Assembly: GCF_032854445.1 (NCBI RefSeq)
Contig: NC_088295.1
Location: forward strand, 91,507,805-91,571,804
Direction of reading: 5' to 3'
DNA from: Liolophura sinensis
Lineage: Eukaryota > Mollusca > Polyplacophora > Chitonida > Chitonidae
Length of the DNA: 64,000 bases
The translations under genes and the position numbers were made by a program. The notes below the pieces were generated by a model. The model had not been told where the DNA came from. It saw nothing but the letters and a program-made list of their open reading frames with translations, and made no database searches. Positions 11,819-54,884 of this stretch are shown piece after piece; position 1 is the stretch's first letter, and each line of letters opens with the position of its first letter.

Positions 11819-12362
11819 GTGAATATAAATACAGGTGTAGTTGTGAGTGGATTCTTTAGTCGTAATTGCCTCTCCTACAGACACTGATTGTTCCTGGTTG
11901 TAAAAAAAATCACGCAAACAGTAGAAAGACAATTTATTATCCATTCGTTTAATTTTTACTGAACGTAGGGAGTTTACATTTGTGTTTAGAGAAGTTTGAC
12001 GGGTTTCTTCTTCCTGTGGATAGTATCATCTCTTAACAACTGACGATGGATCCTCATCTTGAAATACACCCTTTTAGGCTTCTCCCACTAGCAATAAAAA
12101 TCTTACGGGCACATCTTTACAAACCAATAAGACTGACGAGTTTGCTCACTGTGTCTAGCGCAAGAACTAAACAAGTCGTTGCTCCAAACTGTTCTAAATA
12201 TGAATCGTGACAATCCTCCCGGCGCGCATGCGTACTGCGATTTCCCACCGATTGTAGTCTGTATTGGCCGATTTTACCTGCCTACTACAAGGAGAATGAG
12301 ATGAAATTTTCATCCTTGAAAATCACCCTTATTCACTTTGTTCTTCACGGCCATACTTGCAG

Positions 12363-12519
12363 CTGTTTGTCAGTTATGTGGGAACATGGCAGCGGCCAGT
12401 AAGCGGTTTGGGGGAGCAGATATTGCTGGAGGCGTGCTGGGAGGAGCGTGCGGGGGTGCCCCTGCTCTCACTTATCCTCGCCTTCATCATAATGCATTGT
12501 GCCGGTTACACACTCATAG
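12363..12519 (+). pseudogene. Transmembrane exon, set 1, with +1 frameshift
   Basis: Acceptor ccatacttgcag and donor CATAG|GTGAGT match the intact TM exon at 52236 across almost the whole length. Entered in phase 1 it reads VCQLCGNM, SKRFGGADIAGG and VLGGACGG, then loses frame in a G/C run near 12452-12463. From there the hydrophobic tail (LAFIIMHCAGYTLI) lies in the next frame. The exon is 157 nt: six codons shorter at the start plus one extra base compared with 174 nt. Either set 1 has lost its membrane anchor or there is a one-base sequencing error in the homopolymer. Confidence 0.75.
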
Positions 12520-15390
12520 GTGAGTACTGGTGACATACTTACAGACGAGCACTGATTACACACTCACAGGTAAGTACAAGTTACAAACTCATAGGTAAAT
12601 ACAGGTTACACACTCATAGGTGAGTACTGGTGACAAACTTACAGGCAAGCACTGATTATACACTCATAGGTAAGTACAAGTTACAAACGCATAGGTAAAT
12701 ACAGGTTACACACTCATAGGTGAGTACTGGTGACAAGCTTACAGGAAAGCACTGATTATACACTCATAGGTAAGTACAAGTTACAAACGCATAGGTAAAT
12801 ACAGATTACACACTCATAGGTGAGTACTAGTGACACACTTACAGGCGAGCACTGATTATACTGTCACAGGTAAGTACAAGTTACAAACTCATAGGTAAAT
12901 ACAGGTTACACACTCATAGGTGAGTACTGGTGACACACTTACAGGCGAGCACTGATTGCACACTCACAGGTAAGTACAAGTTACAAACTCATAGGTAAAT
13001 ACAGGTTACACACTCATAGGTGAGTACTGGTGACACTCTTACAGGCAAGCACTGATTACACACTCACAGGTAAGTACAAGTTACAAACTCATAGGTAAAT
13101 ACAGGTTACACACTCACAAATGAGTACTGATTACACAGTCACAGGTAAGTACGGGCCACATACTCATGGGTGAGTATTGGTTATACACTCACAGGCCATA
13201 ACTGGTTACCCATTCACAGGTCAGTTCAGGTTACACACTCACAGGTCAGTTCTGTTTTCGTACTCACAGGGTTGTAGTGGTTACACACTCACAGGTAAGT
13301 TCTGTTTTCGTACTCACAGGTCAGTAGTGGTTACACACTCACAGGTAAGTTCTGTGTACTCACTCACAGATGGGTATTGGTTACACACTCACAAATGAGT
13401 ACTGGTTACACAGGATAGTAATGGATATACACTTACAGATGAGTACCGGTTACACACTTACAAGGCAATACTCGTTACACACTCACAGGCTAATACTGGT
13501 TACACATTCACAAGGGAGTACTGGTTACACACTCACAGGTCAGTACTGGTTACACAGTCACAGGTGAGTACCAGTTACACTCTTGCAGGTGAGTACCAGT
13601 AAACACTCACAGGTGAGTACCACGTACACACTCATAGGTGAGTACAGGTTACACACTCTTTGGTGAGTAACGGTTACACATTTACAGGTGAGTACAGGTT
13701 ACACATTTACTGGTGAGCACGGGTTACACACTCATAGGTGAATACCAGTTACACTCTTGCAGGTGGGTATAAGTTACATACTTACAGGTGAGTACTTCTT
13801 AGGCACTCATCGGTGAGTACAGGTTACACATTCACAGGTGAGGACAGATTACATACTTACAGGTGAGCACCAGTTACAAACTCACAGGTGGATATCAGTT
13901 ACACATTTACAGGTTAGTACCTCTTAGGCACTAATGGGTGAGTAGTGGCTGCGCACTCATAGGTGTGTAGGGATTACACATTCATAGGTAAGCACAGATT
14001 TCACACTCAAAGGAAATTACAGGTTATATATTCACAGGCTAGTAATGGTTACTCACTCAAAGATGAGTACAGATTACACACTCAAAAGTGAGTGCAGGTT
14101 ACAGACTCACAGGTGAGTATTGGTTACATACTCACAAATGAGTACTGGTTACACACTCACAAGTGAGTACGGGTTAGACACTCATAGGTAAATACAGATT
14201 ATGCTCTCATAGGTGAGTAACAGTTAAACACCTGCAGGTGAATACCAGCTACACACTCACAGGTGAGTACCAGTTACACACTTACAACTGAATACCACTT
14301 ACACACTCATAGGTGAATAATAGTTTCACACTCACAGATAAGTGCAGGTCACACAACCACAAATGAATGCAGAATACAGACTCACAGGTGAGTACTAGAT
14401 ACATACTTACAGGTGAATACCAATTACACACTCATAGATGAGTATAGGTTACACACTCATAGATGAGTTCTGGTTACACATCCACAGATGAATACAGGTT
14501 ACACAACCACAAGTGAGTGCAAACTACAGACTCACAGGTGAGCAATGGTTACACACTCACAAATCAGTACTGGGTACACACTCACAGGTAAGTACGGGTC
14601 ACATACTAGTATTGGTTATACACTCACAGGTCATTCCTGGTTACCCATTCGCAGGTCAGTACAGGTTACACACTCACAGGTCAGTAGTGGTTACACGCTC
14701 ACAGGTAAGTTCTGTTTACTCACTCACAGATGGGTGTTGGTTGCACAGTGACAGGTCAGTTCTGTTTACACAGGACAGTAATGGATACACACTTACAGAT
14801 GAGTACCGGTTACACACTCCCAAGGGAATACTCGTTACACACTCACAGCCTATTACTGGTTACACATTCACACGGGAGTACTGGTTACACACCCACAGGT
14901 CAGTACTGGTTACACACTCACAGTCAGTAAAGGTTACACACTCACAGGTGAGTACCGGTTACAGAACTTGCTACCTACTCACAGGTGAGCACTGATTACA
15001 CAATCACAGATCCGTACTGCCAACAGTACCGCTAATAGACTCACCTGACTGTGGCGAGTACTAGTTGCACACTCAGAGATCAGTACCGGTTGCATACCCA
15101 CAGGTCAATACTGTTTACTAGAGGACATTCCTGGTTACACACTCATAGGTGAGCACCGATTACACAATCACAGATCAGTACTGCCAACACACTCACAGAT
15201 CAGTACTGCTAACACACTCACAGATCAGTACCGCTTACAGACTCAGCTGATTGTGACGAGTACTAGTTGCACACTCACAGATCAGTATCGGTTGCACACC
15301 CATAGGTCAATACTGTCTACTACAGGACATTCCTGGTTACACACTCACAATTCAGTACCGATTATACAGTCTAAAGGTCAGTACTGGCTA
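12511..15390 (+). repeat. 25-bp minisatellite seeded by TM exon donor
   Basis: About 115 units of roughly ggttacacactcacag|gtgagtact, copying the last exon bases and the 5' splice site. The first six large units begin at 12511, 12611, 12711, 12811, 12911 and 13011, an exact 100-bp (4 x 25) higher-order period. Later units are more mixed. Many units keep CAG|GTGAGTA. A related shorter array follows the TM exon of set 2. Confidence 0.95.
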
Positions 15391-36607: not shown

Positions 36608-36699
36608 CATCCCCCACTATGGATCTGCATGTGGCCTTGTCTACCTACAGGTTAGAGAGGGTTTAAACTTAATATATATGGGTTAATCGATTTTGACCA

Positions 36700-36826
36700 T
36701 GTGCCATTGTCTCTTTCTACACGTGTGGCACAGGTAGTTGTCACTGTAACATTGTGTCTTTGTACAGGAGTGACACAGGTTGCTATGACTGTAATGTTGC
36801 CTCTTTGTGCAGGTGTGACACAGAGT
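36700..36826 (+). repeat. Tandem 3' splice-site repeat before Ig exon, copy B
   Basis: Units of 48 bp, the last two each ending in a pyrimidine tract and AG (ctttgtacag|GAGTG and ctttgtgcag|GTGTG). The frame is open through them, so use of the upstream AG would add 16 residues (VTQVAMTVMLPLCAG region) without shifting frame. Confidence 0.65.
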
Positions 36827-37223
36827 ATACAGGTTACAGGTGCTCAGGACTGCAGTATATTCATCGATCCTGACTGTGCAATGTGTCAGAGCTTTGATGA
36901 TAAGTCTGGAGTTCAACCCAAATACGCCAAGATGGGACAACCCTTAGAGCTGACCTGTGCTGGACAGCTGGCAACGCCACAGTCCCAGAACAAAGCTATC
37001 TGGTACAAGCAGAATGTGAATGACCTACAGAAAGAGATGATTACTATGAACAAAACAGACTTGGTGTATGATCCTCCGGCTCCAAATGCCTGTACGGTTC
37101 TCGGACGCTCCACTCTGACGTATTACCCTCAGAACACGGACCGTGAGCTGAGAATCACCTGTGAAATCAGTTCTGGGAGCTCAGTTGATACAGTCAGTGA
37201 TGAAATGTCCATCTGTGTTGAAG
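36813..37223 (+). CDS. Immunoglobulin-domain exon (membrane-proximal), set 2
   Basis: A 411-nt exon, acceptor ctttgtgcag, donor AAG|GTAAAA, phase 1 at both ends. It has the same length and the same Ig core as 623-1033 (PLELTC, AIWYKQ, RELRITC). Differences are few: N to S and F to S early in the domain, DQQKV to DLQKE in the middle, and loss of one extra cysteine (VLGCS becomes VLGRS). In set 2 it follows Ig exon 34850 and precedes the stalk exons. It is probably the second extracellular domain. Confidence 0.87.
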
Positions 37224-52235: not shown

Positions 52236-52409
52236 TGTAAATGACTGTCCACCTGTCTGCCAGTTATGTGATAACATGGCCGAGGTCAGTAAGCGGTTTG
52301 GAGGAGGAGATATTGCCGGGGCCGTACTGGGAGGAGCGTGCGGAGGAGCTCTGATGGCTCTTCTCTTCACCTTCATCATACTCCACTGTACCGGTTACAC
52401 ACTCACAGG
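52236..52409 (+). CDS. Transmembrane exon, set 2 (intact)
   Basis: Acceptor ggacatacttgcag, donor CACAG|GTGAGT, 174 nt, phase 1 to 1, fully open. It starts V-NDCPPVCQLCDNMAEV (extracellular, three clustered cysteines that could form interchain disulfides) and continues with KRFGGGDI. The hydrophobic span runs from GAVLGGACGG to LLFTFIIL, followed by HCTGYTLTG. GxxxG-type spacing in the span suggests helix packing or dimerisation (inference). There is no charged residue in the span, so pairing with an ITAM adaptor through the membrane is not indicated. It fits a type I single-pass receptor with its own cytoplasmic tail. Confidence 0.82.
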
Positions 52410-53374: not shown

Positions 53375-54795
53375 CAAATGCGAACTTTTATACTGTTGTC
53401 GCTGCTCTCGTTTTACTCTCTGACTGTACGTTTATCACACTGTCGTCGCTGCTCTGGTTGTAGTTTCTGTCCTGTACTCTATCACATTGACGCCGTGGCT
53501 CTGGTTTTACTCTCCATGCTGTATGTTTATCACCCTGTCGTCGCTGCTCTGGGTTTACCCTCTGTGCTGTATACATCTACCACACTGTCGTCGCTGCTTT
53601 CGTTTTACTCTCTGTGTTGTACGCCTATCACACTGTCGTTGCTGCTCTGGTTTTACCCTCTGTGCTGTACTCATTCACACTGTCGTGGCCGCTCTAGCTT
53701 TGCTCTCTGTGCTGTACTCTATCACGCTGTCGTCGCTGCTCTGATTTTACTCTCTGCGTTGTATATCTATCACACTGTCGACCCTCCTCGTGTTTTACTC
53801 TCTGTGCTGTACCTCCACCACACTATCGTGGCTGCTCTGGTTTTACTCTCTGTACTGTACATTATTACACTATCGTGGTTGCTCTGGTTTTACTCTCTGT
53901 GCTGTACTCTATCACACCGCCGCTGCTCTGATTTTACTTGCTGTAATCTATGTCTATCACACTGTCCTGGCTGCTCTAGTTTTACTCTCCGTGCTGTACG
54001 TCTACCACACTGTCGTAGCTGCTCCAGTTTTACTCTCTGTGCTGGACTCTACCACACTGTCATGGCTGCTCAGGTTTTACTCTCCGTGCTGTACGTCTAT
54101 CACACCGTTGCTGCTCGTGTTTTACTTGCTGTACTTTATGTCTATCACACTGTCGTCGCTGCTTAGGGTTTACCCTCTGTGCTGTACGTCTACCACAATG
54201 TCGTAGCTGCTCTAGTTTTACTCCCTGTGCTGCACTCTACCACACTGTCATGGCTGCTCAGGTTTTACTCTCCTTGCTGTATGTCTATCACACTGTCGTC
54301 CCTGTACTGGTTTTACTCTCTGTGGTGTACGTCTGTCACACTGTAGTCGCTGCTCTGGGTTTACTCTCTCTGCTGTACTTTACCACACTCTCGTCCCTGC
54401 TCTGGTTTTATTCCCTGTGCTGTACATCTATCACAGTCGTCGCTGCTCTGGGTTTGCTCTTTGTGCTGTACTCTATCACACTGTCGTGGCCGCTCTAATT
54501 TTACTCTTTGTGCTGCAGTCTACCACACTGTCGTGACTGCTCTGGTTTTACTCTCCGTGCTGGACATCTATCACACTGTCGTCGCTGCTCTGGTTTTACG
54601 CTCTGTACTATACATCTATCACACTGTCGTCCCTGCTCGTGTTTTACTCTATGTGCTGTACGTCTACCACACTGTCGTCGCTGCTCTGGTTTTACTCTCT
54701 GTGCTGTACGTCTATCACACCGTCGCCGCTGCTCTGGTTTTACCCTCCGTGCTGTAGGTCTATCACACCGTCACCGCTGCTCTCGTTTTCTCTCT
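53375..54795 (+). repeat. 48-bp minisatellite, about 29 units
   Basis: Unit cacactgtcgtcgctgctct, ggttttactctctgtgctgt, acgtctat. Frames are open for up to 262 codons, giving leucine-rich pseudo-proteins that are not genes. Confidence 0.9.
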
Positions 54796-54884
54796 GTAGT
54801 GCAGTTAATTATATTACATAGGATACTGGATGAATACTAATTCGGTGTGGGCTTAACATTCAGTTGTTGAGGTCAAATGATGTA

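Follow-up and report, generated by a model that had tools for sequence, protein, structure and literature searches.

Minisatellites whose repeat unit spans an exon/intron boundary are known from amphioxus under the name of 'mirages'; the excerpted text of PMC3087553 reports them in globin genes and cites Adh3 and other loci, and that of PMC3902484 adds PGBD5 and TnC. Such repeats show length instability, and RT-PCR data for Adh3 and the globins suggest that regular splicing is undisturbed by them (both from the excerpt of PMC3087553). Among the papers listed by our searches of the literature, no case of a minisatellite at such a boundary in a mollusc was recognised. The chiton array analyzed here is a large new case of a mirage, of a boundary-spanning repeat type already known from amphioxus. 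Our favored reading, to which we attach a probability of roughly 0.73, is that the tail of a transmembrane (TM) exon and the start of its intron would have been tandemly duplicated in an ancestor of the gene cluster, giving a mirage-type minisatellite that then grew neutrally.

The stretch of chiton DNA under study (64,000 nucleotides, hereafter the window) ends 4.86 Mb short of the end of its contig and holds a cluster of genes with Ig-like exons and a separate TM exon. The gene family is one of immune-type receptors. A Pfam search gave no match at the curated cut-off, with sub-threshold V-set, other Ig and further matches only; sequence searches of the PDB gave weak matches, Ig among them, and the tRNA and Rfam scans returned none. 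A DNA search with the TM exon together with a protein search found at least four TM exons genome-wide: A and B lie in the window, and a tandem copy situated 68-73 kb downstream holds C and D. Their ends (12519 in A, 52408 in B, and 91588312, a contig coordinate) were placed from reading frame and signals. An array adjoins each of the four TM exons found (A 117, B 12, C 167 and D 19 units), and a fifth locus, E, carries 22 units at the equivalent place without a TM exon, with about 740 bp absent. The flanks of E are colinear with those of A and C on both sides.

Behind TM exon A, the 25-bp period was delimited by TRF to 12504-14963, from where degenerate units continue to about 15395; cyclic alignment gives 117 units 3' of the exon. 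Read from the donor, the repeat unit is GTGAGTACTGGTTACACACTCACAG. A preliminary description of this DNA had the array start inside the TM exon, at 12511, and built from the exon's own donor. It does begin within the exon, at 12504 rather than 12511, with the last 16 exon bases in register, and the exon tail as well as the 32-nt junction (16 exon plus 16 intron bases) recur in the array. The last 16 bases of exon A have seven further exact copies in array A and nine in array C, and the tails of exons B and D have one further copy each. A 25-bp recurrence with a 100-bp period in the first part had also been described, and the 32-nt junction of A indeed returns as far as +500, with no mismatch at +100, +200, +400 and +500 and with two at +300. 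Sequence shared with the array extends over the last 16 exon bases in A and C and over the last 21 (20 of them matching) in B and D. Since none of 2,000 random 16-mers taken elsewhere in the window matched array A above 13/16, the exon-array match is beyond chance. The smaller counterpart claimed for the second gene set proved real as well and is array B with its 12 units, there with an exon end at 52408 instead of 52409 (Table 1).

Table 1. Features of the TM exons and their arrays in the window (window coordinates; a slash marks the exon/intron boundary).
Feature	Start	End	Strand	Remarks
TM exon, paralog A	12363	12519	+	Acceptor AG at 12361-12362; predicted limits
Last 16 exon bases of A (GGTTACACACTCATAG)	12504	12519	+	Partial first unit, in array register
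Intronic side of the presumed authentic 5' splice site of TM exon A (TAG/GTGAGTAC)	12520	12527	+	Score 10.98 on a 5' splice-site matrix
Exon-proximal part of array A: six higher-order blocks of 100 bp (4 x 25)	12520	13119	+	
More diverged 25-bp units of array A	13120	15395	+	Mostly 1:1 with paralog C; final units degenerate
TM exon, paralog B (set 2)	52235	52408	+	Reading frame intact; predicted limits
Array B, 12 units after the exon	52388	52681	+	In-register exon tail of 21 bases (20/21); strong donors scarce
Predicted next exon, paralog B	52845	52878	+	Peptide GSKENRVTEAR spans the junction; phase fits donor 52408/52409

We searched the whole genome for a single 23-mer from the unit, allowing up to one mismatch, which catches close matches and misses units diverged further; 47 of 47 matches fell inside the five arrays, and the other strand and a reversed-pattern control gave none. 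With its close matches confined to the cluster and none at unrelated loci, a dispersed repeat or transposon-borne satellite was rejected as the source. The array follows all four TM exons and is present in the colinear paralog E, and it therefore predates the duplications; of the two options left by the preliminary description, an origin before the gene duplication or a tendency to recur, the first is thus borne out. Most likely, the array was born at this locus ahead of these duplications. The reverse order of events, in which a 25-bp minisatellite already resided in the intron and the TM exon captured its 3' end and donor from the first unit, strikes us as unlikely. It would account for paralog E, which holds an array without a TM exon and lacks the approximately 740 bp that precede the array in A and C, as well as for the restriction of the unit match to the last 16-21 exon bases in a region rich in minisatellites. 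Against this stand the adjoining arrays at four of four TM exons, the restriction of close matches of the unit to these arrays, and the colinear flanks of E, which make a deletion of the exon in E the simpler explanation.

Paralog C (upstream part at 69163-76503 in window numbering, compared with 140198-147815 upstream of E) is E-like upstream and A-like downstream. Its upstream part is 98% E-like in the first blocks, and the similarity of A to E is no more than about 80%; such a hybrid is what unequal crossing-over between A and E would be expected to produce. Given this composition of C, the five arrays fall into three older lineages (A/C, B/D and E). The same comparison bears on the possibility that the paralogs A/C and B/D are unmerged haplotypes, or that the array was mis-assembled. 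Aligned non-array stretches of A and C, and of B and D, differ by 0.6-4.9%, near the heterozygosity of 1.24% stated in the excerpt of PMC11068029, which also gives an assembly read coverage of 14x. We nevertheless consider an artefact extremely improbable: the assembly is a HiFi assembly, the E-like and A-like parts of C meet where similarity between A and E is only about 80%, as fits unequal crossing-over, and the arrays in the well-diverged A, B and E are independent of the haplotype question.

The genomic surroundings of the array call for some restraint. In the window, 32% of the sequence is tandem repeat with a period of at least 10, and in the 184-kb cluster 29% is; for comparison, 110 kb of sequence surrounding 30 kinase matches (the 30 best of 136, at gene-rich loci) contains 1.9%, with a small repeat near a match end at one of the 30 loci. 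The window (1-64000) is a repeat hotspot with many different units. With about a third of the region consisting of minisatellites, it is less remarkable for an array to touch an exon here than it would otherwise be. We sought copies of exon boundaries within 2.5 kb of 17 exons and found them on the 3' side of the four TM exons and on the 5' side of three Ig exons (A, B and D); for another four Ig exons the sole match is a paralogous exon some 1.9-2.0 kb distant, and the other six exons have no boundary copy above 17/24 within 2.5 kb. Of 400 random positions in the window, 138 likewise possess a copy of their 24-mer (20/24 or better) no farther than 2.5 kb away, presumably because these positions sit in arrays, and relative to the 400 positions exon edges show no repeat enrichment. 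Contact between an array and a junction may consequently need nothing beyond a repeat-prone region and may in part be coincidence.

Tandem duplication also affects the acceptor side of the Ig exons, at 36695-36830 in B, at 505-640 in A and at 107620-107760 (window numbering) in D. In B, there are about 2.6 copies of a 45-bp segment containing the polypyrimidine tract, CAG and the start of the exon, and A and D have similar copies with a 21/24 match at -99. These in-frame 45-bp copies could serve as alternative acceptors that add 15 residues. Downstream of the B and D TM exons lies a separate 48-bp array (53392-54797 in B; the D copy at 126699-128199 in window numbering), whose consensus unit, in one of the gene-strand frames, reads TVVAALVLLSVLYVYH and resembles a membrane helix, possibly by chance.

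Comparison of the duplicates A and C within this one assembly locates the changes in array length. Their units align 1:1, with few gaps, from unit 24 of A and unit 69 of C to near the far end. The 167 units of C exceed the 117 of A by 50, and 45 of these 50 lie in the exon-proximal 100-bp blocks, of which there are about six in A and about 17 in C; the remaining five or so belong to the far end, which in C contains a repeated segment of some 150-180 bp. Length change has hence taken place mainly, and not solely, at the exon end. The similarity of units at a lag of four in A is 0.94 over the first 20 units and 0.65-0.72 further on.

The TM exons themselves differ in their coding state. The protein match of TM exon A falls in two frames and splits the membrane segment, which is thus frameshifted relative to the duplicate C, where the frame is intact. 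An assembly error could account for the frameshift; otherwise, paralog A may be a pseudogene or code for a protein that lacks the membrane segment. The open frame of B and D extends over the whole TM exon, past the donor and into the next exon, which has an acceptor tract of 75% pyrimidine in B; this continuity supports the assignment of the TM exon donor (52408/52409 in B) by an argument independent of transcripts. A homolog of this next, cytoplasmic exon was sought in A, C and E and was not found. Over 53 codons, TM exons C and B show a dS of 0.40 and a dN of 0.18, values consistent with modest constraint. Homogenisation of the exon tail by the array was considered and set aside, as C and B are equally similar all along the TM exon, with 13-16 of 18 identical positions per bin and 19 of 21 in the final stretch.

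Donor content was scored with a 5' splice-site matrix, sites of 7 or above being called strong; in array C, the scan covered 162 of the 167 units, to contig position 91592300. The preliminary description had envisaged a splice donor in about 100 tandem copies, many of them complete. Of the 117 units of A, GT is kept in 71 (108 of 162 scanned units in C, 8 of 12 in B, 15 of 19 in D and 14 of 22 in E), and only 65 reach a strong score. The full CAG/GTGAGT is present in no more than 9 of the 117 units of A, CAG/GTRAGT in 18, and array C has CAG/GTGAGT in 11 of its 162 scanned units, which corrects the idea of many complete donors. Per-unit scores with this matrix are high for the large arrays (65/117 in A, 102/162 scanned units in C) and intermediate in E (10/22), yet only 3 of 12 units are strong in B, including the true donor, and 3 of 19 in D, leaving set 2 almost without strong extra donors. 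On the same strand, sites of at least 7 occur at 22.4 per kb in array A versus 2.2 per kb in the remaining window. The presumed authentic donor of A and C, TAG/GTGAGT (10.98), is equalled or exceeded by 31 downstream sites in A and 53 in C, the nearest at +50; arrays B and D each hold two further sites of at least 7, none of which equals or exceeds the presumed authentic donor there.

Donor-bearing minisatellites are not a rule of the cluster: when the consensus units of 55 arrays were tested, only the two large 25-bp arrays scored above 10 on the gene strand. Other arrays with CAG/GT have units of 48 bp and 83 bp, with nominal p values of about 0.03-0.08 by shuffling. Four arrays (at -3579, 154043, 156958 and 165942 in window numbering) have donor-like sites of 8.3-9.8 on the opposite strand (p 0.000-0.014 by shuffling).

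A role of the array in splicing, as proposed earlier, is not supported by the conservation of the donor, in which no significant excess was detected. The seven splice-core columns have a mean conservation of 0.844 in A and 0.856 in C, the other 18 columns one of 0.790 and 0.793, and random sets of seven columns reach the core value in 1550 of 10,000 draws for A and 1258 of 10,000 for C; in B, D and E, conservation is lower in the core than in the remaining columns. Over 76 orthologous A-C unit pairs, substitutions number 14/518 in the core and 31/1331 elsewhere. Selection on individual donors was accordingly rejected, both within the arrays and between A and C. U1 is so abundant that its titration by the array is implausible, and neither for U1 titration nor for an enhancer role do we find support.

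The possible consequences of a blurred donor choice can be stated more closely. In A and C, the reading frame carried past the donor meets its first stop after 12 nt of intron, in B and D after 45 nt; strong downstream donors begin at +50 and +93. In all four genes, the stop thus precedes these donors, and every such downstream donor as well as intron retention would encode the same tail-less protein. The prediction from sequence is therefore a two-way outcome; in A, the frameshift adds to the predicted tail-less outcome. This uniform product in all four genes, the 31 and 53 downstream sites in A and C that match or surpass the true donor from +50 onward, and the slightly, if not significantly, better preserved core columns of A and C would suit a splicing device in which many donors recruit U1, enhance the exon or switch between a tailed and a tail-less receptor. 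We judge such a device improbable, given the lack of significant splice-core conservation, the B and D genes with intact frames and no competing donor equal to the true one, and the amphioxus precedent of regular splicing, as far as the excerpt of PMC3087553 describes it. A specific form of it, in which array C with its intact TM exon and about 100 strong downstream donors would act as a donor-choice switch, is highly improbable in our estimate; use of a downstream donor would keep the anchor and drop the cytoplasmic tail, and array length would set the ratio of tailed to tail-less receptors between individuals.

Recursive splicing, with each unit acting as a zero-length exon (a ratchet point) through CAG/GT at the unit boundary, could draw on the AG that precedes 91 of 117 units in A and the GT present in 71 of 117. 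We find this scarcely credible: the 20 nt before the AGs of the units of A and C are on average 52% pyrimidine (70-75% in single units), compared with 65-75% at five presumed acceptors, and a spacing of 25 nt leaves scant room for a branch point before each AG.

Collectively, these data lend themselves to a simple scenario along the lines of our favored reading, the neutrally grown duplication of an exon tail. In an ancestor of the receptor cluster, a tail of 16-21 bases of the TM exon would have been tandemly duplicated together with the start of the intron, and we infer this direction, from exon to array, along with the mode of growth, which may have been replication slippage or unequal exchange. 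Since the duplication that separated A and C, whole 100-bp blocks would have been gained or lost at the exon end, accompanied by a smaller change at the far end. The first donor would most likely be used through exon definition and the array be removed with the intron, leaving the extra donors to decay neutrally. The locus offers a natural test of how the first donor is chosen among many that are equal or better by sequence, with paralog C as the clean case, and of how a repeat can expand beside a coding exon while the gene survives.

Set against known systems, as far as the excerpts of the cited papers describe them, the chiton array resembles two further types of repeat in part. Intron gain by tandem duplication of an AGGT-containing segment (PMC4974935; PMC3087553) likewise multiplies potential splice sites; in the chiton, however, an existing donor was multiplied downstream, and a new intron is not indicated. 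Internal tandem repeats in human segmental duplications (PMC2812944) are comparable in that minisatellites have changed in duplicates of recent origin, in some cases at exon/intron boundaries, but average four units of 30 bp, whereas the large chiton arrays have more than 100 units and are intronic. The closest likeness is to the amphioxus mirages of Adh3, the globins BflGb6 and BflGb9, TnC and PGBD5: the chiton unit, too, spans a presumed exon/intron boundary, and many, yet not all, units carry AG/GT, as is characteristic of mirages. In contrast to these, the host is a mollusc and not a cephalochordate, the large arrays comprise 117-167 units as opposed to 6 and 3 in two BflGb6 haplotypes, the array is common to five paralogs of three diverged lineages, and it is organized in 100-bp higher-order blocks with length change mostly at the exon end. 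Minisatellites at exon/intron boundaries are thus extended from cephalochordates to a mollusc, in which their history can be read across five paralogs.
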